NCBI RefSeq assembly: GCF_000718135.1
Contig: NZ_JOEM01000038.1
Coordinates: 1 to 24,996 of the forward strand
Reading direction: 5' to 3'
Length of the DNA stretch: 24,996 nucleotides
DNA from: Streptomyces cyaneofuscatus
Lineage (GTDB): Bacteria; Actinomycetota; Actinomycetes; Streptomycetales; Streptomycetaceae
Shown here: piece by piece, positions 1 through 24,644 of the stretch
How positions within the stretch are numbered: position 1 is the stretch's first letter
How the letters are laid out: each line of letters starts with the position of its first letter
The notes under the pieces: generated by a model
The model's database searches: none
Told to the model about the DNA's origin: nothing
Seen by the model: only the letters and a program-made list of their open reading frames with translations
Position numbers and translations under genes: made by a program

Positions 1-166
1 GACGCCCCGCCACCACCCGGAGAGCACCCAGCAACACACCCACATCCACAGCACCGGAAAGCCTCAAGACAAACGGCACACCATACGGCGCAACCCCACT
101 CCCCAATTCCTCAACAAACCACAAACCCTCCTGCTCCACCGAAAGCGGAAACTCGAACTCCGTCAT
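1..166 (-). CDS. NRPS, N-terminal part of a condensation domain (runs off the window)
   Basis: Only the first 55 codons are inside the window; the gene continues beyond position 1. The visible residues begin MTEFEFPLSVEQEGLWFVEE, which matches the start of an NRPS condensation domain (core C1, roughly SxxQxxLW), and they continue with the usual PYxxPFxLRLSG strand. The ATG at 166-164 overlaps the stop of the upstream NRPS gene as ATGA, so the two proteins are probably made together and act consecutively, with this C domain accepting the chain from the glycine PCP. Codon use differs sharply from the preceding gene: many codons end in T (GGT, TTT, GTT, CTT) and only four of 55 end in C. What follows the C domain cannot be seen. 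Confidence 0.8.
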   Translation of the reverse strand, partial: MTEFEFPLSVEQEGLWFVEELGSGVAPYGVPFVLRLSGAVDVGVLLGALRVVAGR

Positions 167-8790: not shown

Positions 8791-8914
8791 GCCGTGTAGC
8801 CCTCTCGCGTGAAATGTGAAACAGCCCCTCGGCTCGGACACCGCGTGCGCACTCCGGCTACGGCTTCAACAGCTGTAGTTATCTCCCCATGAAACCGCCC
8901 CACTCGCCCGCAGT

Positions 8915-9671: not shown

Positions 9672-9929
9672 ATGCTCGCACCTATAGACACGATCACGCC
9701 CGAGATGATCGTCAGCCTGATTCAGGCTCACGTTCCCGACATCACTGCAGAGCAGCCGCTGTCCGCAGATACGGACTTGTGGAGAGCTGGAATGGATTCC
9801 CTGTCCAGTGTTTCCGTAGTCGTTGCCGTGGAGGAGCAGTACGACGTGGAGTTCCCCGATGAGTTACTGACTCGGGAGGTCTTCTCCACGGCTGCCGCGA
9901 TCGCCGCGGCGGTCCGCACCCTCCTGTGA
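9672..9929 (+). CDS. Free-standing acyl/peptidyl carrier protein
   Basis: 85 aa, the normal size of a single carrier domain. The phosphopantetheine site is Ser43 in AGMDSLSSV, followed by the usual acidic helix (VVAVEEQYDVEFPDELL). It is first in an operon with an acyl-CoA-dehydrogenase-like enzyme, SbnA, and an SbnB-adenylation fusion that has no carrier of its own. The natural reading is that the fusion loads this protein with an amino acid, probably Dap, and the flavoenzyme then acts on the tethered substrate (inference, by analogy with the ZmaH/ZmaG arrangement in zwittermicin biosynthesis). Leu65 is encoded by TTA (9864-9866), which in Streptomyces would put the first gene of the operon under bldA control. 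Confidence 0.93.
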   Translation: MLAPIDTITPEMIVSLIQAHVPDITAEQPLSADTDLWRAGMDSLSSVSVVVAVEEQYDVEFPDELLTREVFSTAAAIAAAVRTLL

Positions 9930-10009: not shown

Positions 10010-11206
10010 ATGTGTGCCGCGATTGTCGCGCTGGAGGATGCGGAGTCCTCGCGAAGCGAGCGACTGGCAAGTTCCGTCGATGCCGTCACTCACGCAGCTG
10101 CCCAGCATGCGCGAGACGTCGACGCGGGGGCCCGCATGCCTATGGAGGCGATTGCGACTTTGCGAGAGCGAAACCTGCTGGCGGCCGTCGCCCCGCGCGA
10201 CCTCGGAGGCCCGGGGCTGAGCGTTCGAGAACTTGCGGCTGTCGCCGGGAAGATCGCCCGCAGCTGCGGCTCGACCGCCATGGTGTGGGCCATGCATCAA
10301 GGACAGCTGGCCTGCCTGTGTCGGCACCACGGCGACGTTCCCGAACTCGTCGAACTGGCGCGGACCGCCGTGGCCCGGCAGTGGCTGATCGCGTCCGTGA
10401 CCAGTGAACCCGCCGGCGGCGGGGACATCCGCACCAGCGCGGCGGCCCTCGTCCCCTCTACGGACGGCAGCGGGACGGCGACCCTGGTGAAGGACGCCAC
10501 TACCGTGTCCTACGGGGCGGCGGCGGACCTCTTCCAGGTGACCGTCCGTCGGACCCCCGAGGCAGCGGCAAACGATCAAGTCCTCGTCGCCGTGCGGCGG
10601 GATCAGGCAACCCTGGAGCAGCGGGGCACCTGGGCCCCCCTCGGGATGAGGGGGACCAGCAGCCCCGGATTTCGGCTCACCGGGACCGTCCCCCAGGAGC
10701 AGATCCTCGGAGGCCTGTTCGCGGACATCGCCGGTGCCACTATGGTGCCGCTCACCCATACCCTGTGGGCCGCCGTCTGGCTCGGGCTGGCCGGCGAAGC
10801 CGTCAACAGGGCCGTCAAGGTGTCCCGTCGACGGTCGGTCAGCCACCCCGGTGGGGACGCCGCGCGGTCGGCGCTCGGCGAGGCTCGCTGGCGCCTCGCC
10901 TCCCTCGAAGCCCTGCTCGCCGACATGACCGTACGCACCCAAGAGGTGCTGGACGAGGGTGCGCAACCCACCGCGGGCCAGAGCGTTCGCACCAACGCGC
11001 TGAAGGTGGCCGCGTCCGAGAGTGCGCTGGAGATCGCCCACCTGAGCCTGCGGGTGTGCGGCATGGCGGGCTACTCCGAGGAGGGCCCCTACTCCGTCGC
11101 GCGCATCATCCGCGATCTCTCATCCGCTCCCATCATGATTAACAACAGCCGGCTACTCGACGCCACGGCGCAGCTGATGCTGATGGAACGTCAGCGAGAC
11201 CGGTGA
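10010..11206 (+). CDS. Acyl-CoA dehydrogenase-like flavoenzyme acting on a carrier-bound substrate (inferred)
   Basis: 398 aa, typical length for the family. Visible blocks are the N-terminal helical domain with LGGPGLSVRELAAVAGKIAR (65-84), the flavin-contact segment SVTSEPAGGGDIR (129-141), LGMRGTSSPG (211-220), and a C-terminal helical domain with VCGMAGYSEEGPYSVARIIR. These enzymes use FAD to form a C=C bond alpha-beta to a thioester; relatives in NRPS clusters act on carrier-bound amino or hydroxy acids. The neighbours (carrier protein, Dap synthesis, A domain) suggest aminoacyl-S-PCP as the substrate. AAGGGAAG lies 7 bases before the ATG at 10010. The stop is 19 bases before sbnA. I could not identify the catalytic base with confidence, so a monooxygenase-like or non-oxidative role is possible. 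Confidence 0.88.
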   Translation: MCAAIVALEDAESSRSERLASSVDAVTHAAAQHARDVDAGARMPMEAIATLRERNLLAAVAPRDLGGPGLSVRELAAVAGKIARSCGSTAMVWAMHQGQLACLCRHHGDVPELVELARTAVARQWLIASVTSEPAGGGDIRTSAAALVPSTDGSGTATLVKDATTVSYGAAADLFQVTVRRTPEAAANDQVLVAVRRDQATLEQRGTWAPLGMRGTSSPGFRLTGTVPQEQILGGLFADIAGATMVPLTHTLWAAVWLGLAGEAVNRAVKVSRRRSVSHPGGDAARSALGEARWRLASLEALLADMTVRTQEVLDEGAQPTAGQSVRTNALKVAASESALEIAHLSLRVCGMAGYSEEGPYSVARIIRDLSSAPIMINNSRLLDATAQLMLMERQRDR

Positions 11207-11225: not shown

Positions 11226-12176
11226 ATGATCTCCGTTTCCCGCCCGCACGAACTACTCGACTCCGGGATATACGTCGACCTGCGAGAAATCCTAGGTCTC
11301 AACCTCCACGTCAAGTGCGAGGGCTTCAATTTCGCCGGTTCCGTCAAGCTCCGCACCGCCCGCCGACTCGTCGAACAGGCACGGCTCGACGGGAACCTGC
11401 GACCCGACTCCGTGCTGGTCGAATCGTCGTCGGGGAACCTGGGCGTCGCGCTCGCCATGGTGGGCGCCAGCATCGGGCTGCGCTTCGTCTGCGTGACCGA
11501 TCCACAGTGCACCACGCTCAACCTGGGCTTGATGAAGGCGCTCGGCGCCGAAGTGGTGGTCGTGGACCGGGCCGAACCCGACGGTGGCTTCCTGGCAGCC
11601 CGCAAGGAGCGCGTACGGCAGATGTGCGCGGCCGACGCGCGCTACCTCTGGCTCGACCAGTACTCCAACCCGGCCAATTGGCTGGCCCACTACGAGTCGA
11701 CCGCCCCCGTCATCGCGAAGCACTTTCCCGGTCTCGACCTGCTGTTTGTGGGGACCGGCACCGGTGGCACCGCCACCGGGTGCGCGCGGTACTTCAAGGA
11801 CCACGACGCCGGCGTCCGGGTCGTCGCCGTGGACGCAGTGGGCTCCATCAGCTTCGGTGGCCTCCCAGGCGTGCGTCGGATACCCGGTCTCGGCGCAAGC
11901 CAGCGGATGCCGCTGGTCGAACCGTCCCTGTACGCCGCAGTGCAAATGGTCGAGGAGGAGGACACCGTACGCATGTGCCGCACGCTCGCCAAGAGCGGTC
12001 TCCTCCTCGGCGGCTCCTCCGGCACCGTCGTCCGAGGCGCTCTGGACTGGCTGCGCCACAACGACCCCCACCAGGAGCTGACCGCGGTGGCCATCGCGCC
12101 GGACCTTGGGGAGCGCTACGTCGACACCGTCTACGACGACACCTGGCTGGCCGCCAACCATCCCGGCGCCCGATGA
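11226..12176 (+). CDS. sbnA: N-(2-amino-2-carboxyethyl)-L-glutamate synthase, SbnA-like (Dap pathway)
   Basis: 316 aa. A PLP enzyme of the cysteine synthase fold: Lys41 in FAGSVKLRTA for the Schiff base, the substrate loop ESSSGNLG (66-73), the phosphate loop GTGTGGTATG (176-185) and GGSSGT (262-267). The close match in layout to SbnA and the adjacent SbnB partner identify it as the enzyme that joins O-phospho-L-serine and L-glutamate to N-(2-amino-2-carboxyethyl)-L-glutamate with loss of phosphate. A plain O-acetylserine sulfhydrylase is much less likely because of this pairing. GGGAGGA lies just before the ATG at 11226. The stop overlaps an ATG (ATGA, 12173-12176), and the SbnB fusion follows at once. 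Confidence 0.9.
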   Translation: MISVSRPHELLDSGIYVDLREILGLNLHVKCEGFNFAGSVKLRTARRLVEQARLDGNLRPDSVLVESSSGNLGVALAMVGASIGLRFVCVTDPQCTTLNLGLMKALGAEVVVVDRAEPDGGFLAARKERVRQMCAADARYLWLDQYSNPANWLAHYESTAPVIAKHFPGLDLLFVGTGTGGTATGCARYFKDHDAGVRVVAVDAVGSISFGGLPGVRRIPGLGASQRMPLVEPSLYAAVQMVEEEDTVRMCRTLAKSGLLLGGSSGTVVRGALDWLRHNDPHQELTAVAIAPDLGERYVDTVYDDTWLAANHPGAR

Positions 12177-12217: not shown

Positions 12218-14878
12218 ATGGAATCTCAACGGCCCCTCCCCAGGTTCGGCATCGTCTCCGGAGCCACCGTCCACGCGGTCGTGGACGGGCGGCACGAGGA
12301 GATCATGGACCTCGTCGAGCAGACCTACCGTCTGCACGGCGAGGGCGGAACCACCAATCCACCTTCCTACTTCCTGCGCTTCGCCGACCGCCCGCGCGAC
12401 CGCATCATCGCGCTCCCCGCCGCCTTGCGCGGGGAGGAGCCGGTCAACGGGCTCAAGTGGATATCCAGCTTCCCCGGCAACCTCGACTCGGGCATTCCGC
12501 GCGCCTCCGCCGTCCTGATCCTCAACGACGCCGATACCGGGTACCCGTTCGCCTGCTTGGAAAGCTCCATCATCAGCGCCGTACGCACCGCCGCCTCCGC
12601 AGCTGTCGCGGCACGCATCCTGAGCCGCCGCGGAAAGAAGCCGACTCGCATCGGCTTCATCGGCGCGGGGCTGATCGCCCGCTACCTCCACGAATACCTC
12701 ACCGCGTCAGAAACGAGATTCGCCGAGATTGGGGTGCACGACCTGGAGCGATCGTACGCCGAGGCCCGAGCCGCCCAACTCCGCGCCACCCACCCCCACG
12801 TCACCGTCCACGACACGGCCGAACAGCTCATCAGGGGCTCCGACCTCGTGGTGCTCGCCACCACCGCGGCGGAGCCCTACCTCCACGAGACCGCGTGGTT
12901 CGCGCACCATCCGCTCGTCCTCAACGTCTCACTACGCGATTTGGCCCCGGACATCGTCCTCGACAGCATCAACATTGTCGACGACATCGAGCACGTCCTG
13001 CAGGCGAACACCTCGGTCCATCTCGCCGAACAGCGAATCGGGGACCGCAGCTTCCTGCACGGGACCCTGTACGACGTCCTCACCGGACGGATCGAGGTCC
13101 CGGACAACCGCACGGTGGTGTTTTCCCCCTTCGGCCTCGGCGTCCTCGACCTTGCACTGGGGTACTTCGTCCACCGGCATGCGGTGAAGCGCGGGCTCAC
13201 CGTCGACGTCCCTGACTTCTTCCACGACACCGACCGGATCCACCCCCCGAAAAGCACCGCTCCCCACCCGCCGGAAGCGTTGCGGCCCCTGGCGCTGGCT
13301 CCCGGCGCCCGCCAGCGGGCGGTCCAGCGGCACCGGTCCAACCCGGTCCCCGTGGACACGGCCGGGCGGCTCTTCGACACGGTGAGGAGGTGGGCTGAGG
13401 AGCAGCCGGAGCGGGTGGCCTTCGTCGAGGGCGACGACACCATCGCGTACGGCCCGTTCTTCCGGCGGATCCTGGAGATACGCGCCTTGCTGACCGACCG
13501 GGGGTGCGGAGTGGGAGACGTCGTCGCCTGCATCGGCGACCGGAGCTCGGACACCGCGGCCCTGTTCATCGCGCTGGAAGACCTCGACGCGCTCTACCTG
13601 CCGGTCGATCCGGCCTGGCCCGCCGCCCGGGTCGCGGACGTCCTCCGGCAAGGCGGAAGCCGCTACGTCGTCGAGTACGGGCGGGACGCCCAGGGGAGCC
13701 GACTAGCAGTACGCGCCCAGGACCCAGGCGCCGACCGGACGACGGTGCCCGGAGCGGGGGTGGGCGAGCCGCGATACATCATCTTCACCTCCGGCAGCAC
13801 CGGACGCCCCAAGGGCGCGGTGGTCGACCAGACCGGCATGATGAACCACCTCTGGGCCAAGGTCCACGACCTAGGGCTGACTGCCGACGACAGCGTGGCC
13901 TTCACCGCACCCCTGGTCTTCGACATCTCCGTCTGGCAGATGCTGGCCCCCCTGTTGGTGGGGGGGCGAGTGGTGGTCTTCCCAGCCGAGGTCATGCTAT
14001 TCCCGCGACGGATCTTCCGCGCCCTGGAGCGGACGGAGGTTACCGTCGCGGAGGTGGTTCCCAGCCTCGCCACCGTCCTCGCCCAGGAAGCCAGCCGGAA
14101 CACTGAGCAAACCTCCCTGCCCGCGTTACGTTGGCTCATCTCCACTGGCGAGGAGCTGGTGCCGAGCCTCGCCGAACGCATCCTCACCGTCCTGCCCCAC
14201 GCCCAGTTGATGAACGCCTATGGGCCCACCGAGTGCTCCGACGATGTAACCCACCACGTACTCACCACGGCCGATCTACGACGCAACCGGCTGCCCGTCG
14301 GGCAGCCCATCGCCAACGCTGTCCTGTACGTTCTGGTGTACGACCCCGACACCGGCACCTGGGACGCGGCCGAACCCGGCCGGGCGGGAGAATTATTCGT
14401 CGGCGGGGTGCCGGTTGGTCACGGATACGTGGGCGACACTGCGGCCACGAACGTCGCCTTCCATCGCGACACACTCGATCCCGGATCGCCGACCGGCCGC
14501 CTGTACCGCACCGGGGACCTCGCGCGCATCGACCAGGACGGCGTGCACTACCTCGGGCGCACCGACCGACAGGTCAAGGTGGGGGGTGTCCGGATCGAAC
14601 TCGGCGAGGTCGAAGCGGCGCTGAGCCGGCACCCGGAGGTGGAGAGCTGCGCGGTCTCGGTGGCCGCCGATGCCGGTGGACGTCCGGAACTCGTCGCCCA
14701 CTACGTGGCGCCCGGCGAACCGCAGATCGACGACCTGCGGAACCATCTGTCCGCGGCGCTGCCCGCCGCCATGGTGCCGAAGCAGTGGGTGCGCCTGGCC
14801 GCCATGCCCCTGACGGGCAACGGGAAGGTCGACCACCGGTCCCTCCCCGGGCGGCAGGAACGTGGCATAGCCCCGTGA
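12218..14878 (+). CDS. sbnB: SbnB-like dehydrogenase fused to an NRPS adenylation domain
   Basis: 886 aa. Residues 1-345 form an ornithine cyclodeaminase/SbnB-like NAD enzyme with the Rossmann loop GFIGAGLIA (146-154). With SbnA it would release L-Dap and 2-oxoglutarate by oxidative hydrolysis. Residues about 380-880 form an A domain: IIFTSGSTGRPKG (A3, 521-533), NAYGPTE (A5), YRTGDLAR (A7), GRTDRQVKVGG (A8) and the A10 Lys870. The specificity residues read D-I-W-E-I-T-A-D-D-K; the acidic positions suit a diamino acid. No carrier follows, so loading must be in trans, most simply onto the protein at 9672. Leu637 and Leu726 are TTA codons. I chose the ATG at 12218 (GGAGAG upstream, spacing 13). 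The ATG at 12173, overlapping the sbnA stop, would add 15 residues in atypical codons. Confidence 0.9.
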   Translation: MESQRPLPRFGIVSGATVHAVVDGRHEEIMDLVEQTYRLHGEGGTTNPPSYFLRFADRPRDRIIALPAALRGEEPVNGLKWISSFPGNLDSGIPRASAVLILNDADTGYPFACLESSIISAVRTAASAAVAARILSRRGKKPTRIGFIGAGLIARYLHEYLTASETRFAEIGVHDLERSYAEARAAQLRATHPHVTVHDTAEQLIRGSDLVVLATTAAEPYLHETAWFAHHPLVLNVSLRDLAPDIVLDSINIVDDIEHVLQANTSVHLAEQRIGDRSFLHGTLYDVLTGRIEVPDNRTVVFSPFGLGVLDLALGYFVHRHAVKRGLTVDVPDFFHDTDRIHPPKSTAPHPPEALRPLALAPGARQRAVQRHRSNPVPVDTAGRLFDTVRRWAEEQPERVAFVEGDDTIAYGPFFRRILEIRALLTDRGCGVGDVVACIGDRSSDTAALFIALEDLDALYLPVDPAWPAARVADVLRQGGSRYVVEYGRDAQGSRLAVRAQDPGADRTTVPGAGVGEPRYIIFTSGSTGRPKGAVVDQTGMMNHLWAKVHDLGLTADDSVAFTAPLVFDISVWQMLAPLLVGGRVVVFPAEVMLFPRRIFRALERTEVTVAEVVPSLATVLAQEASRNTEQTSLPALRWLISTGEELVPSLAERILTVLPHAQLMNAYGPTECSDDVTHHVLTTADLRRNRLPVGQPIANAVLYVLVYDPDTGTWDAAEPGRAGELFVGGVPVGHGYVGDTAATNVAFHRDTLDPGSPTGRLYRTGDLARIDQDGVHYLGRTDRQVKVGGVRIELGEVEAALSRHPEVESCAVSVAADAGGRPELVAHYVAPGEPQIDDLRNHLSAALPAAMVPKQWVRLAAMPLTGNGKVDHRSLPGRQERGIAP

Positions 14879-14916: not shown

Positions 14917-16011
14917 TCAGCGCCGTCGACCCTCGATGAGAGCGATCAGGGCCTCGGCAACTCGGGCGCACCCCTGTCCGTCCACCGCCTCTGCCCCCCG
15001 CCGAGCGAATTCGGCACGCTCCGCCGGACTAGTGAGCAGTCGGCGCAGCTGTGCGACACCGTCGCCCCCGGCTCCGTCGGTAGCACGCAGCACTTCGAGA
15101 CTTCCCAGCCCGGCGACCAGGGCGTCGCCGAGTACCGCCTCGTAAAGCGGCTGCTGGGACACGGTCACTGTCACCACGGCGACGGCGCAGCCGATGCACA
15201 GCAGGTCGAATACGGAACTGCCCGCCGCCGTAACGACAAGATCCGAGGTGCGGGCGAGTTCCGGCAGGTGTGCGACGGGTTCGACCACGTGGACTTGTTG
15301 GGCCGTTCCAGTCGGCAACGCCTTGATCGCACGGGCCGGTTCAGAACCGGTGGCCACGGCCGTCATCCGCAGTGGCGCGCCGGTCGCGAGCAGCGCCCGA
15401 ACCGCAACGGGGACTCCGCCATAGGGATCGGTGGCACCGAAAAAGCACAACACTTGCGGGGGTTCGGAGGGGTTGACGACGGTCCGTTCCGCTCGGCGCC
15501 CGGCGGCGAGCACGGCGTCGCGGATCAGGGCGTGGCGGTACCCGCCGAGCCGACGGGCTCCTGCAGGAAGAATGGTTCCGATTTCGCCTCCGCCCGGGGA
15601 CTGATCGACGTACAGGTCGGCCTCCTGTGCCCGGGTGGCCCCGTCGATCAAGGCGGCCACCACGATCCCGGCCGACCGAAGGGCCGAGGAGCACTCCGGG
15701 GCCAGCGTGTGCGAGTCCAGGACCACCGCGTCGAGGGCCATCTCCATTGCGACGCCGGCCAGTTCAGCTGGATCTTCGGGTCCCGGCAACACCGGGATCC
15801 TCTGGTCGTCCACGTACTCGCGGAGCCAGGCCGGACTCGCAGCCCGGCCAAGCAGGAACACCTCGGCGCCGCGTCGGCGCAGCTCGTCGGAAAGGGCGAG
15901 GCAGCGCATCACGTGCCCCCCGCCGATGCGCGGCGACGCATCAGCTCGCAGGCCGATCCGCAGCCCACGGGCAGAGCCCGGGGCAACGAGCGTGCTGCTG
16001 TCGAGGGCCAT
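14917..16011 (-). CDS. pseG: PseG/SpsG-like UDP-sugar hydrolase or related GT-B enzyme
   Basis: 364 aa. It has a GT-B fold related to MurG. The N-terminal RADASPRIGGGHVMRCLALS (22-41) includes the conserved GGGH with candidate catalytic His33. The C-terminal half has CFFGATDPYG and the nucleotide-sugar segment TAAGSSVFDLL (261-271), then SQQPL. PseG removes UDP from 2,4-diacetamido-2,4,6-trideoxy-L-altrose in pseudaminic acid synthesis. A PseB-like gene nearby supports a related aminosugar, although the intervening aminotransferase and acetyltransferase are not here. It could instead act as a glycosyltransferase. The gene is alone on the minus strand, convergent with the SbnB fusion (38-base gap, no clear terminator). 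The start is ATG 16011 (AGGAG at spacing 10); GTG 16017 is the alternative. Confidence 0.82.
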   Translation of the reverse strand: MALDSSTLVAPGSARGLRIGLRADASPRIGGGHVMRCLALSDELRRRGAEVFLLGRAASPAWLREYVDDQRIPVLPGPEDPAELAGVAMEMALDAVVLDSHTLAPECSSALRSAGIVVAALIDGATRAQEADLYVDQSPGGGEIGTILPAGARRLGGYRHALIRDAVLAAGRRAERTVVNPSEPPQVLCFFGATDPYGGVPVAVRALLATGAPLRMTAVATGSEPARAIKALPTGTAQQVHVVEPVAHLPELARTSDLVVTAAGSSVFDLLCIGCAVAVVTVTVSQQPLYEAVLGDALVAGLGSLEVLRATDGAGGDGVAQLRRLLTSPAERAEFARRGAEAVDGQGCARVAEALIALIEGRRR

Positions 16012-16021
16012 GGTCACGAAG

Positions 16022-16032
16022 CTCCTACGGAG
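16022..16032. promoter_or_regulatory. Palindromic pair of back-to-back Shine-Dalgarno sites
   Basis: CTCC-TAC-GGAG supplies GGAG on both strands. The minus-strand copy serves the PseG-like gene (ATG 16011 or GTG 16017) and the plus-strand copy (extended to GGAGGA) serves the epimerase ATG at 16039. Only 27 bases separate the two start codons, so both promoters must lie inside the opposite coding regions. Confidence 0.6.
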
Positions 16033-16038
16033 GAAGGC

Positions 16039-16989
16039 ATGCGCGTATTGATCACTGGGGCGTCCGGCTATCTCGGGCAGACAGTGGTGCACCGCCTGGT
16101 TACGGAGGGGTTCGCGGTGACCGCGCTCCAACACCGCACCAGGCGGTGGTGGCCTTCGGCCGTCCGGGTACGTGCGGGGGACTTACTCCGGCCGGCGGGT
16201 CTGACGGAAGCGGTCCGGGACGTCGAGGCGGTGTGCCACCTCGCTGCCGATACGACGGTGCGCCAGACCTCCGAACACGCGGCCGAACTGCAGCGGCAGG
16301 TTATCACCGGGGGAACCACCCATCTGCTGGCCGCGATGGAGACCGAGGCCAAACGCCGCGGTACTTCTCTGGTGTTGCTCAACCTTTCCAGCTCTGCGGT
16401 GTATGGGCGGGGCACCGGCAGCCCCCTGCGCACCACAGACATGGCCAAACCCCGGAGCCCCTACGGCGCCGCCAAGCTGGCCGCCGAGAAGGCCATCGGT
16501 GCCACAGCCGCCGGCGGTCGCATCGGGGCGATCAGCCTGCGTCTGTTCAATGCCGCCGGTCGCACACCCTACGGCTCCGCGCCCAGCCCGGTCACCCTGA
16601 TTCCCCGGGCAGTGGCTGCCGCGAGCGGACACTCGCCGGCCCTGACCGTCAACGGGGACGGCAGCGCCGTGAGGGACTTCGTCCACGTCCGTGACGTCAC
16701 CGCCGCGGTGGCCGCCTCCCTCGTCCGTACGGTGCCGGGAACTCACAGCGTCTACAACGTCGGCGCCACCCCCGCGAGCGTGGCCGAGGTGCTGGACGAG
16801 GTTGGGCGGTACGCCGGCAGGAACGTGCCGGTGCGATATCGGTCGGCCGACGAGAGGGACACCCCCCACCTGGTGGCCGATACGGCCGATGCCAGGGCCG
16901 CACTGGGCTGGGACCCGGTCCGCTCCGGGTTGCCGCACATCGTGGCGGAGCAGTTCGACGCCTCTTACCACGAGCACAACAGGAGTTGA
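16039..16989 (+). CDS. NAD-dependent NDP-sugar epimerase/dehydratase (extended SDR)
   Basis: 316 aa, normal for the family. The N-terminal Rossmann loop is TGASGYLG (6-13). CHLAADTT is the usual strand-4 motif. The catalytic set is the Ser-rich strand NLSSSAVYG with Tyr142 and Lys146 in SPYGAAK (YxxxK). VRDFVHVRDV and the C-terminal SVYNVG segment are typical of GalE/RmlB-like nucleotide-sugar enzymes. It probably epimerises or otherwise modifies a UDP- or dTDP-sugar for the glycosyltransferase encoded two genes downstream. The exact reaction cannot be told from sequence. The ATG at 16039 follows GGAGGA closely; much longer in-frame extensions upstream are not plausible because they run antisense through the PseG-like gene. 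Leu49 is a TTA codon. The stop is two bases before the PseB-like ATG. Confidence 0.88.
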   Translation: MRVLITGASGYLGQTVVHRLVTEGFAVTALQHRTRRWWPSAVRVRAGDLLRPAGLTEAVRDVEAVCHLAADTTVRQTSEHAAELQRQVITGGTTHLLAAMETEAKRRGTSLVLLNLSSSAVYGRGTGSPLRTTDMAKPRSPYGAAKLAAEKAIGATAAGGRIGAISLRLFNAAGRTPYGSAPSPVTLIPRAVAAASGHSPALTVNGDGSAVRDFVHVRDVTAAVAASLVRTVPGTHSVYNVGATPASVAEVLDEVGRYAGRNVPVRYRSADERDTPHLVADTADARAALGWDPVRSGLPHIVAEQFDASYHEHNRS

Positions 16990-16991
16990 GA

Positions 16992-17990
16992 ATGTCGCAG
17001 ACACTCCAGGGATCCACCCTGCTGGTCACCGGGGCCACCGGTTCTTTCGGCCGGGCGCTCATCGGGCACGTCCTGGACCACCACCGGGCGGCCCGCGTCG
17101 TGGCCTACTCGCGGGACGAGCTCAAACAGTACGAGGCCCGCCGCCACTTCGATGACGACCCCCGGCTGCGGTGGGTCATCGGCGACGTACGCGACCGGGA
17201 GAGACTGCTCTCCGCGATGCGAGGCGTCGACCACGTCGTTCACGCGGCCGCCCTGAAACAAGTGGACACCGGGGAGTCCAACCCCTCGGAGTTCGTCCGG
17301 ACCAATGTCCTGGGCTCGCAGAACGTGGTGGACGCTGCGATCGAAGCGGGTGTACGCAAGGTCGTGGCCCTCTCCACCGACAAGGCGTGCCGTCCCATCA
17401 ACCTGTACGGCGCCACTAAGCTCGTCGCGGACAAGCTGTTCATCGCGGCGAACCTCCAAACGGCCGACGCGGAGGCACGGTTTGCGGTCGTACGGTACGG
17501 GAACGTCCTCGGGAGCAGGGGATCGGTGGTCCCGTTCTTCCGGGAGACGGGACGCGCCGGGAAGTCCCTGCCCATCACGGACAAGCGGATGACCCGGTTC
17601 TGGCTCGGCCTTGACCAGGCGATCCGCTTCGTCGTGGAATCCCTGGACCTGATGCAGGGTGGTGAGCTGTACGTCCCGCGCATACCCAGCATGCGGATCG
17701 TCGACCTGGCGCGGGCGGTCGTACCGGACGCCCTCATGCATGAGGTGGGGCTTCGCCCCGGCGAGAAGCTCCACGAGGAGATGATCCATCCCGACGACGC
17801 CGCTAGCGTGGTCCGGCTGGGCAACCGGTACATCGTGCAGCCGACCCTCGGCGACGCCTGGGACTACCGGCAGCCCGCCGACGCCGTACCGGTACCGAGC
17901 GGGTTCTCCTACTGCTCCGACCAGAACAGCCAGTGGCTGACCGCCGACGACCTTCGCACCCTGCTCGGCCCAACGGGGGTCCTGTCATGA
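16992..17990 (+). CDS. pseB: UDP-N-acetylglucosamine 4,6-dehydratase, PseB/FlaA1-like
   Basis: 332 aa. An extended SDR with the NAD loop TGATGSFG (13-20), AAALKQVDTGESNPSEFVRT (85-104), which parallels the ALKHV...E.NP...TN block of PseB, the STDKA motif (Asp130, Lys131) and YGATK (Tyr139, Lys143). Spacing of the Asp-Lys-Tyr set is almost the same as in H. pylori FlaA1, a C5-inverting UDP-GlcNAc 4,6-dehydratase. The product would be a UDP-4-keto-6-deoxy-2-acetamido sugar, ready for amination at C4. With the PseG-like gene this points to a 2,4-diamino-2,4,6-trideoxyhexose-type building block. The ATG at 16992 follows AGGAG (16981-16985); TTG at 16986 is an unlikely alternative. The stop overlaps the next start as ATGA. 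Confidence 0.9.
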   Translation: MSQTLQGSTLLVTGATGSFGRALIGHVLDHHRAARVVAYSRDELKQYEARRHFDDDPRLRWVIGDVRDRERLLSAMRGVDHVVHAAALKQVDTGESNPSEFVRTNVLGSQNVVDAAIEAGVRKVVALSTDKACRPINLYGATKLVADKLFIAANLQTADAEARFAVVRYGNVLGSRGSVVPFFRETGRAGKSLPITDKRMTRFWLGLDQAIRFVVESLDLMQGGELYVPRIPSMRIVDLARAVVPDALMHEVGLRPGEKLHEEMIHPDDAASVVRLGNRYIVQPTLGDAWDYRQPADAVPVPSGFSYCSDQNSQWLTADDLRTLLGPTGVLS

Positions 17991-20881
17991 CCACAACCAC
18001 GCCTACTCTACGTGCTTTGGCCCGCCGCCTCGCCGACTATGCGGTGCTCGCCCATGACCCCGCGGTGCCAGCCGCCACGGCCGGCTACTGGGAGATGAGC
18101 CGCGCCCACTACACAGCGATCGACGACGTAGTGCGCGGATTCTCGGCCAAGGACGTTGCCGGGGCACGGGCGTACCAGGCACTCGCAACCGCGGCGCACG
18201 ATCCGGCTCACCACCGGTTGCTCACTGGGTACTTGGCGGGGATGCTGCACCGGCACCCGGCCGAGCAAGCCCGACTCGGCGCACTGGTCGCCGCTAGTGA
18301 CCGGGAGATTTGGCTCGACCACCACCTCGGCGACCGGCACACACCAGACAGGGCACCGCTCGGGCTCAAGGAGGTACACGCCCTGGCCGGGCCCCGGGTG
18401 AGACCACCCGGGGCCGACCCCCGAGTGCACGTGGTGATTCCCTTCCGCGACCGAACTGGCGAGGGCCGCGCCCGCAACCTGCTCGCCTGCCTGATCGCTC
18501 TGCGTGACCAGGACTACGCTATCGGCTCGGTCCAAGTCACCGTCGTCGAGACCGACGTCCACCCTCGCTGGCGAGAACTGATCGAGCCACTGGTCGACTC
18601 CTATGTGTTCGCCGCCCACGACGGCCGATTCAATAAGTCCTGGGCGGTCAACGTTGGCGTGGTCACCGAAGGCGCCGGGTCGGTCTACACCTGCGTCCTG
18701 GATGCGGACATCCTGATTGACCGCTCCTTCGTCCGCCGTAACGTCCGGCGGTTCCTGGACAACGGGCACACAGCACACGTCTGCTGCGACCAGTCCCTCT
18801 CCCTAGACGGCCCGTCAACAGCCGAAGCCATCGCCCGGCGGTGCGGAGCCGGAGACGCCGACGTGCCGCTAGACGTGCTGCGTGGAGTCCTGCTGCGGGA
18901 GCCGCCGGGCGGTGCCCTGTGGGCACGCAGCGACGCGTACGAAGCGGTCAGCGGCTTCGACGAACGCTTCGAGGGCTGGGGCGGCGAGGATGAGGACATC
19001 ACCCGCAGGTTGCAGCGGAGCGGCGACTTCCGGCGCTACGGTGACGCACCGCTGCTGCACCTGGACCATCCGCGCCCGGCAATGCGCGACAGTGAGCAAC
19101 AACCGTTCAACGCCCATGTAAAGATGGAAACTTGGGACGGCGGTGCCGGCTACGGCGACCCGTTCGCGTACACCGGCATCGCACCACGCTCGACTGCCGC
19201 GATCGCATTCTCGGCCACCGCTCGGGTTCCCGGCCCCCTAATGTGGGGGCAACGTCTGCTTTGGAATGACTCTCAATGGCTGGGAGAGAACGACCACTAC
19301 TTCAACATGACCGTGAGCGTGCCTGTCCCGCCCGGATGCCGGCTTACCCAAGTCCTGGATTGTCTGCAGCACCTAGTCCATCGCCACGAGGCTCTGCGCA
19401 GTAGGGTGATTCTCACTCCCGCGGGAGCACCCCTCCAGGAAGTCCTGCCCTCAGGATCGATCGACGTCCTACTTGCGGAAGCCTCCCCGGACACGGTAGA
19501 GGACGTCGCCGTGCAATCGCACGCGGAGCTGTTCGGGCGCTCCTTCCGCTTGGCCGACGAATGGCCGGTGCGGCCCTGTGTCGTCTCGGTCCAGGGCCTC
19601 CCCGCCCACGTCACGCTGGTCCTCTCGCACGTCTTCGCCGACGCCGGTGCGGCAGCGGTTCTCGCTGAGGAGTTGACAGCGCTGCTGGCAGGAACCACAG
19701 CCGACAAACTGCCGGGGCAGCCCCCCGCGCAACCGCTAGACCGTGCCGCTTACGAGGCCTCCCCGCCCGGCCAGAGACTCTCGGCGATCGCCCTGCGCCG
19801 ACTGGAAAAGCAGCTTCGGTCGATCCCGCAGACAATGTTCCCGGGCCCGGTGCTCAAGCCCGATCCATACCGCTACCGTCGGATGGAGATGCGCTCACCG
19901 GCCCTGACCGAAGCCTTGCGCCGTATTGCCGACCGGGAAAAGGCCAGTACATCGACTGTGCTGCTGGCCACCGTCGCCCTGGTGCTCGCGGCCGCCACCG
20001 GCCAGCGAACCGCAGTGTTCAAGACTGTACTCGGCAACCGTGCTTTCCCTGGTCTGGAACGGCTGGTGGGCAACACCCTCAGCAACGGCATCGTGCCAGT
20101 CGGGATCAAGGACGCCACCTTCGCCCGTCTGGTAAACGCGGTCGGCCGAGTCACGATGGGCAACCTGCTGCGCAGCCAGTGCGACCCGACCGAGCGGGAC
20201 GCGGTGACGGCTGCGGTCTCCCACGAGCGGGGCGTCCATGTGGATCTCTCGGTGTTCTTCAACGACACCCGTGACATCGCCAGAGGGCGGGAACCTCACA
20301 TGCGGCCAGAAGCGGATCTCGAAGCCCTGTCCGCGTTGACCCAGACGTCCTGGGTTGGTGAGTGGGAGCGGCAAGATGCCAAGTTCTTCTTCCACACCCG
20401 GTCGGACCGTGACTGCGACCCGGTATATGCGATGGTTGATACCGCCTTCCTGGCGAGCGCATCCGTCGACGCCCTATTGCGCGGTCTCGAACGCGTCGCC
20501 GTGCGGGTGGCCGAAGCGGACACACCGATCCGAGAGCTTCGGGAACTTCTCGAGAAGCACGGCACCGGTGCCCCCGCCCGCGGCCCTGACTGGCTGCTGG
20601 TGGACCACTGCTGGATCCGGCCAGGAGACATTAGTGCGGCGCTCGCTGCGGCGCTCCCGGCGTGGCCGTCCGAGGTGTTGGTCACCGAGAGGGAAGAGGG
20701 GCCCATCCTCACGGCGCACGTCACATGTGACGACCCGTCGGTATCCCCGCAGGACTTGCACCGGGCCGTCGTCTCCGTCTTGCCGGACTTCCCGGCCGCT
20801 ATGGCTCCGAGCCGTTACCTGATCACCTCGGCGGATTCTCCGCCTGCGGGCGCGGCCGGAGAACCGGTCGGCCCAACCTAG
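17987..20881 (+). CDS. Glycosyltransferase (GT2/GT7-like) fused to an NRPS condensation domain
   Basis: 964 aa. Residues 1-140 are an alanine-rich, probably helical region I do not recognise. About 145-365 is a GT-A glycosyltransferase: VHVVIPFRDR, the DAD metal motif (239-241), and FEGWGGEDED (328-337), typical of galactosyltransferase-like C-terminal segments. About 410-855 is a condensation domain: a C1-like start LLWNDSQWLGENDHY, HRHEALRSR (C2), and SHVFADA (547-553), where the catalytic His548 and Asp552 are kept while the first His and the final Gly of HHxxxDG are changed. Residues about 870-950 resemble only the small C-terminal subdomain of an A domain, with no A core. The enzyme may glycosylate and also acylate an aminosugar or peptide (inference). 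There is no signal peptide or membrane segment. The ATG overlaps the PseB stop (ATGA). Confidence 0.85.
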   Translation: MTTTTPTLRALARRLADYAVLAHDPAVPAATAGYWEMSRAHYTAIDDVVRGFSAKDVAGARAYQALATAAHDPAHHRLLTGYLAGMLHRHPAEQARLGALVAASDREIWLDHHLGDRHTPDRAPLGLKEVHALAGPRVRPPGADPRVHVVIPFRDRTGEGRARNLLACLIALRDQDYAIGSVQVTVVETDVHPRWRELIEPLVDSYVFAAHDGRFNKSWAVNVGVVTEGAGSVYTCVLDADILIDRSFVRRNVRRFLDNGHTAHVCCDQSLSLDGPSTAEAIARRCGAGDADVPLDVLRGVLLREPPGGALWARSDAYEAVSGFDERFEGWGGEDEDITRRLQRSGDFRRYGDAPLLHLDHPRPAMRDSEQQPFNAHVKMETWDGGAGYGDPFAYTGIAPRSTAAIAFSATARVPGPLMWGQRLLWNDSQWLGENDHYFNMTVSVPVPPGCRLTQVLDCLQHLVHRHEALRSRVILTPAGAPLQEVLPSGSIDVLLAEASPDTVEDVAVQSHAELFGRSFRLADEWPVRPCVVSVQGLPAHVTLVLSHVFADAGAAAVLAEELTALLAGTTADKLPGQPPAQPLDRAAYEASPPGQRLSAIALRRLEKQLRSIPQTMFPGPVLKPDPYRYRRMEMRSPALTEALRRIADREKASTSTVLLATVALVLAAATGQRTAVFKTVLGNRAFPGLERLVGNTLSNGIVPVGIKDATFARLVNAVGRVTMGNLLRSQCDPTERDAVTAAVSHERGVHVDLSVFFNDTRDIARGREPHMRPEADLEALSALTQTSWVGEWERQDAKFFFHTRSDRDCDPVYAMVDTAFLASASVDALLRGLERVAVRVAEADTPIRELRELLEKHGTGAPARGPDWLLVDHCWIRPGDISAALAAALPAWPSEVLVTEREEGPILTAHVTCDDPSVSPQDLHRAVVSVLPDFPAAMAPSRYLITSADSPPAGAAGEPVGPT

Positions 20882-20945
20882 TGAAACCCCCGCCGCAGGA
20901 GACTCGCCGCTCCTCTCTCCCCAAGACCCGCCCTCCACTCTCGCG

Positions 20946-20951
20946 AAGGAG
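20946..20951 (+). promoter_or_regulatory. Shine-Dalgarno AAGGAG deciding the first ABC start
   Basis: AAGGAG stands 7 bases before GTG 20959. This favours that start over the in-frame GTG at 20881, which would overlap the preceding stop and add 26 low-complexity Pro/Arg/Ser residues. Confidence 0.7.
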
Positions 20952-20958
20952 AACACCT

Positions 20959-22857
20959 GTGCCAGCGTCGCTGACCTGGTCGGCCGACGTTGTCGCTGCC
21001 GTCCGCGGACGAACGGGCCGTTGGGTCGAGATCACCCGTCTGTTGCATCGGGCGGGGACCCACGCCGCAGTCGGGTCACTGCTGCTGAACGTGGTACTCG
21101 GCATTCTCCCTGGCACGTTCGTCGTCGCCACGAGTGTGCTGCTCGGCGAGGTGCCGGGTCCGGCCGAGGCGCGCTCGGGACTGCCGGCGAAGGCCTTCAC
21201 CACCCTGTTCGTGGTGGTCGGCGCCTTCGCGCTGCAGCACTTCCTGGCACCGTTTCAAACGGTAGTAGCGGAAGCTGTTGCCCGTCGTGTTGACGAGCAT
21301 TGCATCGAAAGACTTTTCGAAGTGACGCTACGTCGGGCTCCGTTCCAAATCCTGGAGAACCCGTTCCACATCGACCTGATCGCCGACGCGCGGGCTGCCT
21401 TCGCCCGTGCGATGCCTACACCCGGCGAAGCAGCTGCTGCACTACCATTGCTGCTTGCCCGCTATAGCCAGCTGGCCACTGCGGTCGTGCTCGTTGGGTA
21501 CGTGCTCAGCCCGCTTGCCGCTGTCGTCGCGGCCGCGACCTCACTGGCCATCCGATTCGGCGTGCGCGGAACGTTGGGTCGGTACGCGGTGCTCTGGGAG
21601 TCACTGACTCGGCATCGCCGCAGGACCAGCTACATGAGAGAGCTAGCGACCGGACTCCAGGCGGCCAAGGAAATCCGCATGCTGAACCTAATGCCGTGGT
21701 TGAGCGCTCGGTTCCGCAAAGAGACCATGGCCGAGTTGCAGCCGCTGTGGGAGGGGAGCCGACGCCTGCAGTTCTGGCCGTTCATCGCCTTGGCGGCCGT
21801 CGGATTCCTCGGTGGATCGACCATACTGGGCCTGTTGGCGTCGCAGACGTCGCAAGGGCGGGTCAGCCTGTTGGAGCTGGGCATCGGCATCCAGGCGGTC
21901 TTGATCACCATGCGCTTCGGTGTGGCGTTTCCGGAATGTGACATGCCGACCCAGTTCGGGATGAACTCCTTCCATGCACTGAAACGGCTGGAAAAGGTGT
22001 CAAGTCGCGCAGCCCACCAGACGTCTGCACTCGATGCTCCCGCACCTGCACCGCAAAACTTGATCGCCTTCGAAAAGGTCTCGTTCTCCTACCAACAGGG
22101 TGCTCCGGCAGTGCTCGACGGGCTCGACCTGGAAATCCCCGCCGGTAAGTGCACCGCCATCGTCGGTCTCAACGGGGCTGGCAAGACCACGTTGGTGAAA
22201 CTGCTGGCCCGGCTCTACGAACCCACCCAGGGCCGGATCCTGGTCGACGGCGTCGACCTGGGCGACTGTGCCCCGGGAGCCTGGCAGCGTCGGATCGCCG
22301 TCATCTTTCAGGACTACCTCCGCTACGGGCTTTCGGCCGGAGAGAACATTGGTCTCGGCAATCCCAACCTCCTCGACGACAATGCGGCTGTGCTTGCCGC
22401 AGCCGAGAGCGCCGGGGCAAGCGGCATCGTGCGGAGTCTGCCCGAGGGCCTGCGCACGCCGCTCTCCCGGAACTACCCCGGCGGGCGTGACCTCTCTGGA
22501 GGTCAGTGGCAGCGGATCGCGCTCGCCCGAGCCCTGCTGGCCGTCCGTGGCGGGGCCACAGTCCTGGTCCTAGACGAACCGACCGCGCAGTTGGACGTAC
22601 GCAGCGAAGTGCAGTTCTTCGACGAATTCCTGGCCACTTCCGGGGCTCAGGGCATCACCAGCGTCATCATCTCGCACCGCTTCTCGACCGTAAGGCACGC
22701 GGACCGGATCGTGGTCCTTGAGTACGGCCGGGTGCTGGAGCAGGGCACCCACGAGTCACTCATGGAGGCCGACGGGCGGTACGCGGAGCTATTCCGGTTG
22801 CAGGCCCAGCGATTCCACGACGAGCACGAGCGGGAAGAGACGGGAGCTACCCCATGA
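20959..22857 (+). CDS. ABC exporter half-transporter (membrane and ATPase domains), subunit 1
   Basis: 632 aa. The N-terminal membrane domain (about 35-345) has hydrophobic segments near 38-62, 81-98, 160-200 and 273-295, and the coupling-helix sequence AAKEIRMLNL. The ATPase domain (about 365-620) is complete: Walker A GLNGAGKTT (403-411), Q-loop IFQDY (449-453), signature LSGGQ (512-516), Walker B VLVLDE (535-540) and H-loop His573. It probably forms a heterodimer with the next gene product in the cytoplasmic membrane and exports the cluster product, giving self-protection. Substrate specificity is inferred from context only. The gap from the glycosyltransferase fusion is 77 bases, and the stop overlaps the next ATG (ATGA). 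Confidence 0.93.
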   Translation: MPASLTWSADVVAAVRGRTGRWVEITRLLHRAGTHAAVGSLLLNVVLGILPGTFVVATSVLLGEVPGPAEARSGLPAKAFTTLFVVVGAFALQHFLAPFQTVVAEAVARRVDEHCIERLFEVTLRRAPFQILENPFHIDLIADARAAFARAMPTPGEAAAALPLLLARYSQLATAVVLVGYVLSPLAAVVAAATSLAIRFGVRGTLGRYAVLWESLTRHRRRTSYMRELATGLQAAKEIRMLNLMPWLSARFRKETMAELQPLWEGSRRLQFWPFIALAAVGFLGGSTILGLLASQTSQGRVSLLELGIGIQAVLITMRFGVAFPECDMPTQFGMNSFHALKRLEKVSSRAAHQTSALDAPAPAPQNLIAFEKVSFSYQQGAPAVLDGLDLEIPAGKCTAIVGLNGAGKTTLVKLLARLYEPTQGRILVDGVDLGDCAPGAWQRRIAVIFQDYLRYGLSAGENIGLGNPNLLDDNAAVLAAAESAGASGIVRSLPEGLRTPLSRNYPGGRDLSGGQWQRIALARALLAVRGGATVLVLDEPTAQLDVRSEVQFFDEFLATSGAQGITSVIISHRFSTVRHADRIVVLEYGRVLEQGTHESLMEADGRYAELFRLQAQRFHDEHEREETGATP

Positions 22858-24644
22858 GGAGTGTTTGGACGTCCGCCTCCTACCTGCTGGCTCTGGGATG
22901 GCGCATCAGCCGCCGCCGCCTGGTCGTCTCTGTCGTGCTCTTGACAGTGGGCCACCTGTCCGCACCGATGGCGGCAATAATGCTGGGTGCCTTCTCCGAG
23001 GCCGCGCTCTCGGGGCGGACCGCCCGCGCCGTCACCCTTTCCGTCGGTATCGCCTTAGTCCTAGTTTTCGACCTGACCATGACGCACTTCGCCCACCTCA
23101 CCTACTACGAATTGGGTCAGCTCGAACAACTCGCCCTCACCGAGGAGGTTGCGGGCATCGTCAACGGCAGCCCGGGTATCGAGGTGCACGACGATTCCAG
23201 GTTCAGCGAAACGCTGTCGATGGTGACCGACCGCCTGCTGCAGGTTCGGGCGGCCTTGGAGGCGGCACTGCTGCTGGGCAGCGCAGTACTGCAGGGTCTG
23301 CTGACCGCAGCAGTGTTGGCGAGCGTCAACCCCTGGCTAGCATTGTTGCCCCTAGCGGCCGTTCCCGCAGTGTTGGCCAGCACCCGAGCCCAGCGAATCG
23401 TGGACGAGGCCAGAAACGCGACCGCCTCGCACCTCCAGCTGTCCCGCCACTTGGTGGATCTCGGCACTATGGCCACGTCAGCGAAGGAAATCCGGCTCTT
23501 CGGCGTCCAGGATGCAGTGGTGGAGCGGCAACGGCGAGCGTGGCGCGCTGTCTCTAATCGCCTGACCACAGCGCAGTTCCGCGGCGCCCTGCTGCGAGCC
23601 GGCGGCCAGATAGGGTTCGCTGCCGCCTACGGCGTGGCTATCTGGCTGGTTTTGCGGGGGGCGGTCAGTGGCGAGGTCGGCATCGGACAGATGGTTCTCA
23701 CCCTCACCCTCTCGGTCCAGGTCGGCGCTCAGGTCGCAACCACGCTGGGGCTAATCGGCAAGCTGCAGAACGCGGGCCGCATCGTAGAACTCATCGCCCA
23801 GCTGCGCTCGAGCGCGGCACCGGAGACCCTGTCCGCTGCGAGGGTGGCTTCGCTCCCGGCGGTCCTACGCGGCGAAATCCGTCTGGAGAGCGTCTCGTTC
23901 GTCTATCCCGGCACAGACCGGCTGATCCTGGACAACGTCTCCTTGACCATCCCGGCCGGCACCACTGCGGCCCTGGTCGGCGAGAACGGCGCAGGCAAAA
24001 GCACGCTCGTCAAGCTTCTCTGCGGCCTATACCGCCCTACGTCCGGCCGCATTCTGGTCGACGGTATCGACCTTCAGGATCTCCGCTTGGAACAGTGGCA
24101 AGCCCGAGTCGCCACCCTCTTCCAGGACTTCGCACGGCTCGAACTGCGCCTGCGAGAGAACGTAGGCATCGGCCGCCTCGACTTCATGGAGGACGACGAC
24201 CGACTCCGGCAAGCCCTGAAGGCGGCGCGGGCAGACACTTTGGTGTCCGCTCTGCCGGACGGTCTCGATCAGCTTCTCGGGCACGCCTACGGAGACGGCT
24301 CGGAACTCTCCGGCGGCCAGTGGCAGTCTCTGGGGCTCGCCCGCGCGCTAATGCGCACCGACCCGTTGCTGTTGCTCCTTGACGAGCCGGCAGCCGCACT
24401 GGACGCCGCTGCGGAGCACACCCTTTTCGAACGGTTCGCCGCCGGCTCGAGCGTCGTCGGCGCCACCAACGGTGCGGTGACCCTCTTTGTCTCCCACCGT
24501 TTCTCCACCGTTCGCCTGGCCCAGCAGATCATCGTGCTCGGCAGGGGCCGTGTCATCGAGGCGGGCACACATGAGGCTCTCATGGCCGAACAGGGCTTCT
24601 ACCGAGAGCTGTTCACCCTCCAGGCTGAGGCCTATGAAAAGTGA
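22854..24644 (+). CDS. ABC exporter half-transporter, subunit 2
   Basis: 596 aa. The membrane domain (about 10-330) has hydrophobic stretches near 22-45, 60-75, 135-180, 250-272 and 278-300, and the SAKEIRLFGV coupling segment. The ATPase domain (about 340-590) has Walker A GENGAGKST (376-384), Q-loop LFQDF (422-426), signature LSGGQ (485-489), Walker B LLLLLDE (505-511) and His548 in SHRFSTVR. Both subunits keep all catalytic residues, so neither ATP site looks degenerate. The ATG sits in an ATGA overlap with subunit 1, as expected for a 1:1 heterodimer. Leu68 is a TTA codon (23055-23057). This is the last gene of the plus-strand operon. Confidence 0.93.
   Translation: MRSVWTSASYLLALGWRISRRRLVVSVVLLTVGHLSAPMAAIMLGAFSEAALSGRTARAVTLSVGIALVLVFDLTMTHFAHLTYYELGQLEQLALTEEVAGIVNGSPGIEVHDDSRFSETLSMVTDRLLQVRAALEAALLLGSAVLQGLLTAAVLASVNPWLALLPLAAVPAVLASTRAQRIVDEARNATASHLQLSRHLVDLGTMATSAKEIRLFGVQDAVVERQRRAWRAVSNRLTTAQFRGALLRAGGQIGFAAAYGVAIWLVLRGAVSGEVGIGQMVLTLTLSVQVGAQVATTLGLIGKLQNAGRIVELIAQLRSSAAPETLSAARVASLPAVLRGEIRLESVSFVYPGTDRLILDNVSLTIPAGTTAALVGENGAGKSTLVKLLCGLYRPTSGRILVDGIDLQDLRLEQWQARVATLFQDFARLELRLRENVGIGRLDFMEDDDRLRQALKAARADTLVSALPDGLDQLLGHAYGDGSELSGGQWQSLGLARALMRTDPLLLLLDEPAAALDAAAEHTLFERFAAGSSVVGATNGAVTLFVSHRFSTVRLAQQIIVLGRGRVIEAGTHEALMAEQGFYRELFTLQAEAYEK

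Follow-up and report, generated by a model that had tools for sequence, protein, structure and literature searches.

A glycosyltransferase–condensation domain fusion in Streptomyces as a candidate enzyme for sugar aminoacylation

The gene at positions 17987 to 20881 of a 24,996-nucleotide stretch of Streptomyces cyaneofuscatus DNA (contig NZ_JOEM01000038.1, assembly GCF_000718135.1; this whole stretch is hereafter called the window) joins three parts in one reading frame: a GT-A glycosyltransferase (GT), a condensation (C) domain of the kind found in nonribosomal peptide synthetases (NRPSs), and a tail that weakly resembles the C-terminal subdomain of an adenylation (A) domain. We propose with moderate confidence, from sequence comparisons, that the fusion protein is a tailoring enzyme with two activities, glycosylation and aminoacylation, both directed at one small molecule. 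In its mode of action it would resemble a free-standing synthase of amides or esters that has been joined to a glycosyltransferase. A first-pass annotation made from the letters of the window had recognized this domain order and had suggested that the protein could couple glycosylation with release of a peptide onto an amino sugar. The observation is confirmed; the interpretation is partly supported. The parts of the gene are as follows.

17987..20881, + strand: GT-C-tail fusion gene; 964 amino acids; ATG start overlapping the stop codon of the PseB gene by 4 bases
17987..19159, + strand: GT-A glycosyltransferase part; residues 1-391; DxD at 239-241, WGGEDED at 331-337, H358 and H361
19160..19201, + strand: GT/C junction; residues 392-405 (approximate), placed from the ends of GT-only matches and the starts of C matches
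19202..20566, + strand: condensation domain; residues 406-860 (approximate); motif SHVFADA at 547-553, with His548 and Asp552
20567..20878, + strand: tail; residues 861-964; weak resemblance to an A-domain C-terminal subdomain; A10 lysine absent

The reading frame is uninterrupted, with zero internal stops over its 964 codons, and the remaining five frames over the same interval contain 11 to 28 stops apiece. The 4-base overlap with the upstream PseB gene suggests translational coupling. A longer alternative start, a GTG at 17933, is less likely because aligned relatives begin close to the ATG (our Pfam scan of the fusion used the GTG, and residue numbers there are 18 higher). Both halves appear to be complete, as for a genuine fusion, because two sets of local BLAST matches meet at the junction: GT-only proteins (n = 31) end on the fusion at median residue 391 (range 363-421), and C-domain matches (n = 44) start at median residue 402.5 (range 390-438). 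Among about 5.8 billion proteins searched, 15 full-length clusters share the domain order (P0002-P0016; 97-100% coverage, 56-98% identity). Eleven of the 15 carry an organism name, which is Streptomyces or Kitasatospora throughout, and 10 of 11 full-length relatives that bear their source's own name are labelled "condensation domain-containing protein." A linear S. anulatus plasmid of 292 kb, whose record is described as complete, carries one copy. The relatives are thus fused over their full length rather than split in two, as they might have been if a frameshift had created the frame in the window; the 15 clusters and the same organization on the complete plasmid record rule out both a frameshift and misjoined genes. 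The fusion is rare: among 392 sampled Streptomyces genomes the sole full-length match was the window itself, and 70 genomes of a sister genus contained one (locus G594). On the tree described below, its nearest unfused relatives are stand-alone C+tail proteins (P0017-P0019, from Streptomyces sp. NBC_00708, NBC_00525, and NBC_00726), whose gene context was sought in 394 family genomes and not found, the best match being the fused protein of G594.

Each half scores above the Pfam cut-off of a catalytic family and retains the residues expected of it. The N-terminal part matches Glyco_transf_7C (PF02709) with 34.9 bits (cut-off 23), and its match to GT2 (PF00535) is below the gathering score (11.6 versus 23.3 bits); L017, a stand-alone relative of the GT part, passes PF00535 with 38.7 bits. 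The DAD and WGGEDED motifs are present as the first-pass annotation described them, and all 42 rows of the family alignment (41 of them distinct) have D239, D241, W331, G332, G333, E334, D335, D337, H358, and H361 without exception. When a profile of 19 stand-alone GT relatives was compared with solved structures, it matched beta-1,4-galactosyltransferase chains (E 2.8e-7), over about 32 residues only. Approximately 140 N-terminal residues precede the first GT-like strand in the fusion.

The second part matches Condensation (PF00668) with 66.9 bits (cut-off 30.6). Catalytic His548 and Asp552, which had been noted earlier, are kept in 16 of 16 GT-C fusions and in 99 of 99 C+tail proteins; the corresponding residues are kept in 22 of 24 fusions of a C domain to DUF6271 (PF19787), the other two being unaligned at the site. 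The exact HHxxxDG motif is absent from the fusion, which reads S547-H-V-F-A-D-A553, with Ser for the first His and Ala for the Gly. SHVFADA occurs in 14 of 16 GT-C fusions and SHxxADG in the other two, giving SHxxxD[A/G] overall. A profile of 17 C+tail proteins, from which the fusion was left out, matched many solved NRPS C domains, the best being PvdL (E 5.5e-30), and the fusion sequence alone matched one of these, a tyrocidine synthetase chain (E 0.00069).

The tail is common to the GT-C fusions, the DUF6271-C fusions, and the stand-alone C+tail proteins. In the fusion (residues about 861-964) it has no Pfam match, to PF13193 or to any other family, even at E<=1. A profile of 151 distinct tails, run against proteins lacking the tail, gave eight matches that passed the inclusion threshold (E-values from 5.6e-5 to 0.0084), and all eight overlap a Pfam AMP-binding_C domain (PF13193), the window's own SbnB-A protein (see below) among them. 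These E-values are weak, and a reversed control gave two matches with similar values (E 0.00085 and 0.0013), each made up of two weak pieces. The earlier suggestion of an A-domain C-terminal subdomain is therefore borne out as a weak resemblance. The catalytic lysine of motif A10 is missing, and the fusion has no NGK at its C terminus. The sequence G[NTSD]GR stands at the C terminus of 90 of 99 C+tail proteins, all 24 DUF6271-C fusions, and 2 of 16 GT-C fusions.

The fusion gene belongs to a conserved 10-gene cassette (carrier, acyl-CoA dehydrogenase, SbnA, SbnB-A, PseG-like, short-chain dehydrogenase/reductase [SDR], PseB, GT-C, and two ATP-binding cassette [ABC] transporters) that is present in three Streptomyces loci. 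Its proteins are 71-88% identical to those of the window on the S. anulatus linear plasmid and 56-90% identical in Streptomyces sp. McG3. The other genes of the cassette in the window, together with one whose membership is uncertain, are these.

7639..8841, - strand: NTP_transf_5 nucleotidyltransferase; cassette membership uncertain
9672..9929, + strand: free-standing carrier protein; 85 amino acids; PP-binding, 35.8 bits versus a cut-off of 20.8
10010..11206, + strand: acyl-CoA dehydrogenase family protein (family library scan)
11226..12176, + strand: SbnA (2,3-diaminopropionate biosynthesis); 88% identical to an annotated SbnA on the S. anulatus plasmid
12218..14878, + strand: SbnB fused to an adenylation domain (SbnB-A); TIGR03944, 408.3 bits, above the equivalog cut-off of 326.9
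14917..16134, - strand: PseG-like protein, an NDP-sugar hydrolase or GT-B protein; start uncertain
16036..16989, + strand: SDR resembling GalE, a sugar epimerase or reductase; scores 134.9 bits, short of the 262.3 required for galE
16992..17990, + strand: PseB, UDP-GlcNAc 4,6-dehydratase (inverting); TIGR03589, 449.5 bits, above the cut-off of 407.75 (scanned from 16986)
20881..22857, + strand: ABC transporter 1; start at 20881 or 20959
22854..24644, + strand: ABC transporter 2 (family library scan)

The surroundings of the cassette differ from locus to locus: the window has NRPS, AT, and LLM genes, and the plasmid has a YcaO/TOMM cluster and transposases. We searched positions 150000-206366 of the plasmid (56 kb) and the whole 45.8-kb McG3 contig, and in these stretches the fusion was the only match to the C-domain profile. 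The window does contain an NRPS (PCP-C-A-PCP, PCP being a peptidyl carrier protein; 163-3624, - strand); in the same stretches of the two relatives, this NRPS used as a query met the adenylation domain of SbnB-A only. The window's LLM monooxygenase, AT, CbiA-like, and phosphoesterase genes were likewise found beside neither relative's cassette (tblastn, E<=1e-4), and we rejected all five as parts of the system. The sugar-nucleotide genes, whose position next to the fusion had been remarked on, are more constant: PseG-like, SDR, PseB, and GT-C genes occur together not only in Streptomyces but also in a second genus (G594). Diaminopropionate genes were not found in 35 kb at the G594 locus, which indicates that the fusion is tied to the sugar genes; it stays with them while the acyl supply seems to change.

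Building on the fusion itself, the catalytic residues of both its parts, the conservation of the cassette, and its single C domain and free carrier, we infer a donor, an acceptor, a bond type, an order of steps, an export route, and a role for the tail. The GT-A part would transfer a sugar, probably of the 6-deoxy-HexNAc type, which PseB and the SDR would build from UDP-GlcNAc. Since, in the stretches of the two relatives that we searched, the only C domain found is that of the fusion and the only A domain found is that of SbnB-A, the latter and the free carrier are the obvious supply for the former. SbnA and SbnB make L-2,3-diaminopropionate in staphyloferrin B biosynthesis, and SbnB-A would join the synthesis and the activation of this amino acid in one protein (its SbnB part belongs to the ornithine cyclodeaminase family, and two relatives are 78-79% identical over 881-886 residues). 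Its A domain could thus load the free carrier with a single diaminopropionyl-type group. At the specificity-determining positions, read by eye, SbnB-A has D-I-W-E-I-T-A-D-D and the usual Lys, close to a code for diaminobutyrate and fitting a diamino acid donor. The acyl-CoA dehydrogenase perhaps oxidizes the carrier-bound group. The C domain would then pass the diaminopropionyl-type group from the carrier to a soluble acceptor, as an amide or an ester; the likeliest acceptor is the sugar or the newly formed glycoside. The tail may bind the carrier or pack against the C domain, and the two ABC transporters would export the product.

Is pairing with a glycosyltransferase a general property of such C domains? 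We surveyed 40 regions, 38 of them around fusion matches (mostly better-scoring C-type proteins) and the other two centred on paralogues from the window's own genome, together with the loci of stand-alone GT relatives and four more regions, and counted C-type proteins shorter than 1100 residues with a C-profile E-value below 1e-20. Of 26 tailed C domains, 24 had a GT or DUF6271 as partner, either fused to them or no more than two genes away, DUF6271 being the partner in 21, a count that supports an association without measuring its strength, as the loci were picked by similarity to the window protein. Two of the 26 are fused to a GT7C-type GT and three to DUF6271; a GT lies next door to one and DUF6271 next door to 18. 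Of the exceptions, L066 has neither partner, and in L075 the start of the protein is 43 bases away from the end of a contig. Among tail-less C domains a GT lay within two genes in 1 of 19 cases (20 rows, one locus appearing twice). A DUF6271-C query retrieved 217 proteins, with 24 fusions among the 120 listed. In a phylogenetic tree, 7 of 7 GT-C fusions fall in one clade (support 99/96), apart from the DUF6271 fusions, and the latter require six changes, at least four of them on starred branches; the position of L032 is unsure, as its branch is long. Part of this count of changes is gene-calling noise, given that in one strain the same C domain is annotated both fused (P0030) and alone (P0065).

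DUF6271 itself, to judge by eye from its conserved RRDSD, LTLPT, and LDS stretches, looks GT-A-like. Profile-profile comparison of PF19787 with the GT part of the fusion detected nothing, one run giving E 0.72 and the other 0.16 and 0.58, and one DUF6271 protein compared by sequence with solved structures gave no match. The cluster that holds DUF6271 (L072 and L097 in full, L078 in the window's own genome, and others of L072-L104) is widespread in Streptomyces and encodes a C+tail protein, an aminoacyl-tRNA synthetase-like protein (tRNA-synt_2b, 26.6 bits, just under the cut-off of 29.3), a PhyH dioxygenase, DUF6271, and, identified by eye, carrier-like, phosphopantetheinyl transferase-like, and MFS-type proteins. 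Here again a C domain, a carrier, and a loading enzyme would be available, one of each. A bolder reading, which we consider less likely than not, is that tailed C domains are a distinct class of carrier-dependent acyl transferases built for a GT-A partner, fused to a GT7C-type GT (with one origin) and to DUF6271 (with several); DUF6271 would then be an unrecognized GT-A family, and its cluster would make aminoacylated sugars. Literature searches, which missed most subscription papers, turned up no study of DUF6271. Because tailed C domains are repeatedly paired with a GT or DUF6271, this uncharacterized Pfam family gains a testable function.

Several observations weigh against a fusion that glycosylates and aminoacylates one molecule. 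No deacetylase or aminotransferase was assigned among the nine of ten cassette proteins scanned with Pfam or NCBIfam (the tenth, SbnA, was identified through the annotation of its 88% identical homologue), and thus a free sugar amine is unsupported; the bond may instead be an ester, or the acceptor a different one. The PseG-like protein misses the equivalog cut-off for PseG (TIGR03590, 111.9 versus 153.55 bits) and found no match among solved structures by sequence; were it a hydrolase, it would destroy a UDP-sugar. Because the flanks of the window differ from those of its relatives, genes other than those of the cassette could supply the acceptor. The McG3 carrier is 56% identical to that of the window and is encoded on the opposite strand. 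In G594, A-domain queries found no match in 35 kb, and the genes for a DltC-like carrier and for aminotransferases are 6-9 kb away from where the gene quartet ends, so that the donor there differs or comes from elsewhere. Most of the 21 tailed C domains with DUF6271 apparently represent one orthologous cluster and are not independent. Finally, the tail-less C domains that we compared also carry SHxxxD- or CHxxxD-type motifs, and the changed motif is therefore not special to domains with a GT partner.

The alternative that survives best, although we consider it fairly unlikely, is that the two halves act in the same pathway at distant sites or stages and are fused only for co-expression or co-localization. 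Stand-alone relatives of the GT are indeed common, five loci (L010-L014) having no C-domain match, and the C+tail proteins P0017-P0019 show that the other half exists by itself. Linked steps are nevertheless suggested by L032, in which a GT gene adjoins a C+tail gene, by S. hainanensis, in which it adjoins a tail-less C gene, and by the several changes in the tree that the DUF6271-C fusions require. Release of an NRPS-bound peptide by the C domain onto the amine of an amino sugar, with the GT attaching the sugar, is the reading first proposed for this gene, and we regard it as improbable. The window does have an NRPS, and a C domain of streptothricin biosynthesis forms an amide between an amino acid and an amino sugar, as stated in PMC4351081. 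Arguing against peptide release, the two cassette-bearing relatives offer the NRPS query only the A domain of SbnB-A, and no deacetylase or aminotransferase is assigned in the cassette proteins scanned. Slightly less probable still is glycosylation on the carrier, in which the GT would modify carrier-bound diaminopropionyl and the C domain would move the glycosyl-aminoacyl group to another amine. Such a scheme would accommodate the single free carrier and one C domain, and HAD-like partners of some GTs (fused in P0020, adjoining in L021 and L023, with HAD recognized by eye in the latter) hint that acceptors may vary; yet nothing in the sequence of the GT indicates that it binds a carrier. That one half is a noncatalytic scaffold, as the altered first His and Gly of HHxxxDG might hint, is highly improbable given catalytic His and Asp in every GT-C fusion and unbroken conservation of the GT motif residues.

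How, then, does a bifunctional enzyme that glycosylates and aminoacylates one molecule compare with known systems? Free-standing C domains that use soluble amines include VibH (PMC7962358) and OaaC (preprint PMC13142362). Like the fusion, they have a single C domain and a separate carrier, and their acceptor is soluble, as we propose for that of the fusion; unlike it, they have no GT part or A-subdomain-like tail mentioned in the accessible parts of these two sources. OaaC-type domains, according to the same preprint, carry a (D/H)HxxxDS motif with highly conserved second His and Asp; this motif resembles the SHxxxD[A/G] of the fusion, a resemblance that may serve as a lead and carries no class assignment. 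The GT part shares a WGGED-type motif with the beta-1,4-galactosyltransferases (GT7) and GT2 enzymes of the GT-A fold but differs from them in its added N-terminal stretch and C domain and in the shortness of the match. In lincosamide synthetase (LmbC, the carrier LmbN, and LmbD), a free A domain and a free carrier likewise supply the amino acid that is joined to an amino sugar, and the pathway contains LmbT, which is similar to glycosyltransferases; there, however, the proteins are separate, and LmbD is without similarity to any known sequence, according to PMC4351081. The streptothricin C domain, which likewise joins a carrier-bound amino acid to an amino sugar, belongs according to that source to an "unusual NRPS." The DUF6271-C-tail proteins of Streptomyces and Kitasatospora have the same C-domain type and tail, but in place of the GT they bear an N-terminal PF19787 without detected profile similarity to it. 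Each half thus resembles a known kind of enzyme, and the whole appears to fit no characterized fusion family: in agreement with the first-pass annotation, which knew of no such enzyme, no published study of the GT-C domain-tail order turned up in the literature searches described above. If both halves act on one molecule, the fusion would be a compact enzyme for making aminoacylated sugars and a marker for mining clusters that do so.

Finally, we note some features of the surrounding loci. On the S. anulatus plasmid the cassette (L136; NZ_CP108693.1, 163565-206366) has a YcaO/TOMM gene cluster on one side and transposase genes on the other, a position suggesting that it may move as a module. 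A copy of the NTP_transf_5 protein with 77% identity is encoded near the cassette on this plasmid (L138:5467-6645). To the left of the McG3 cassette (L109, L110) are carbamoyltransferase, OTCase-like, pyruvate-kinase-barrel, and APH-like kinase genes, which may form another group of tailoring genes. Stand-alone GTs at L010-L013 and L112 sit in a recurrent cluster whose other members, by eye, are radical SAM, PhyH-like, alcohol dehydrogenase, and oxidoreductase genes, the set varying by locus.

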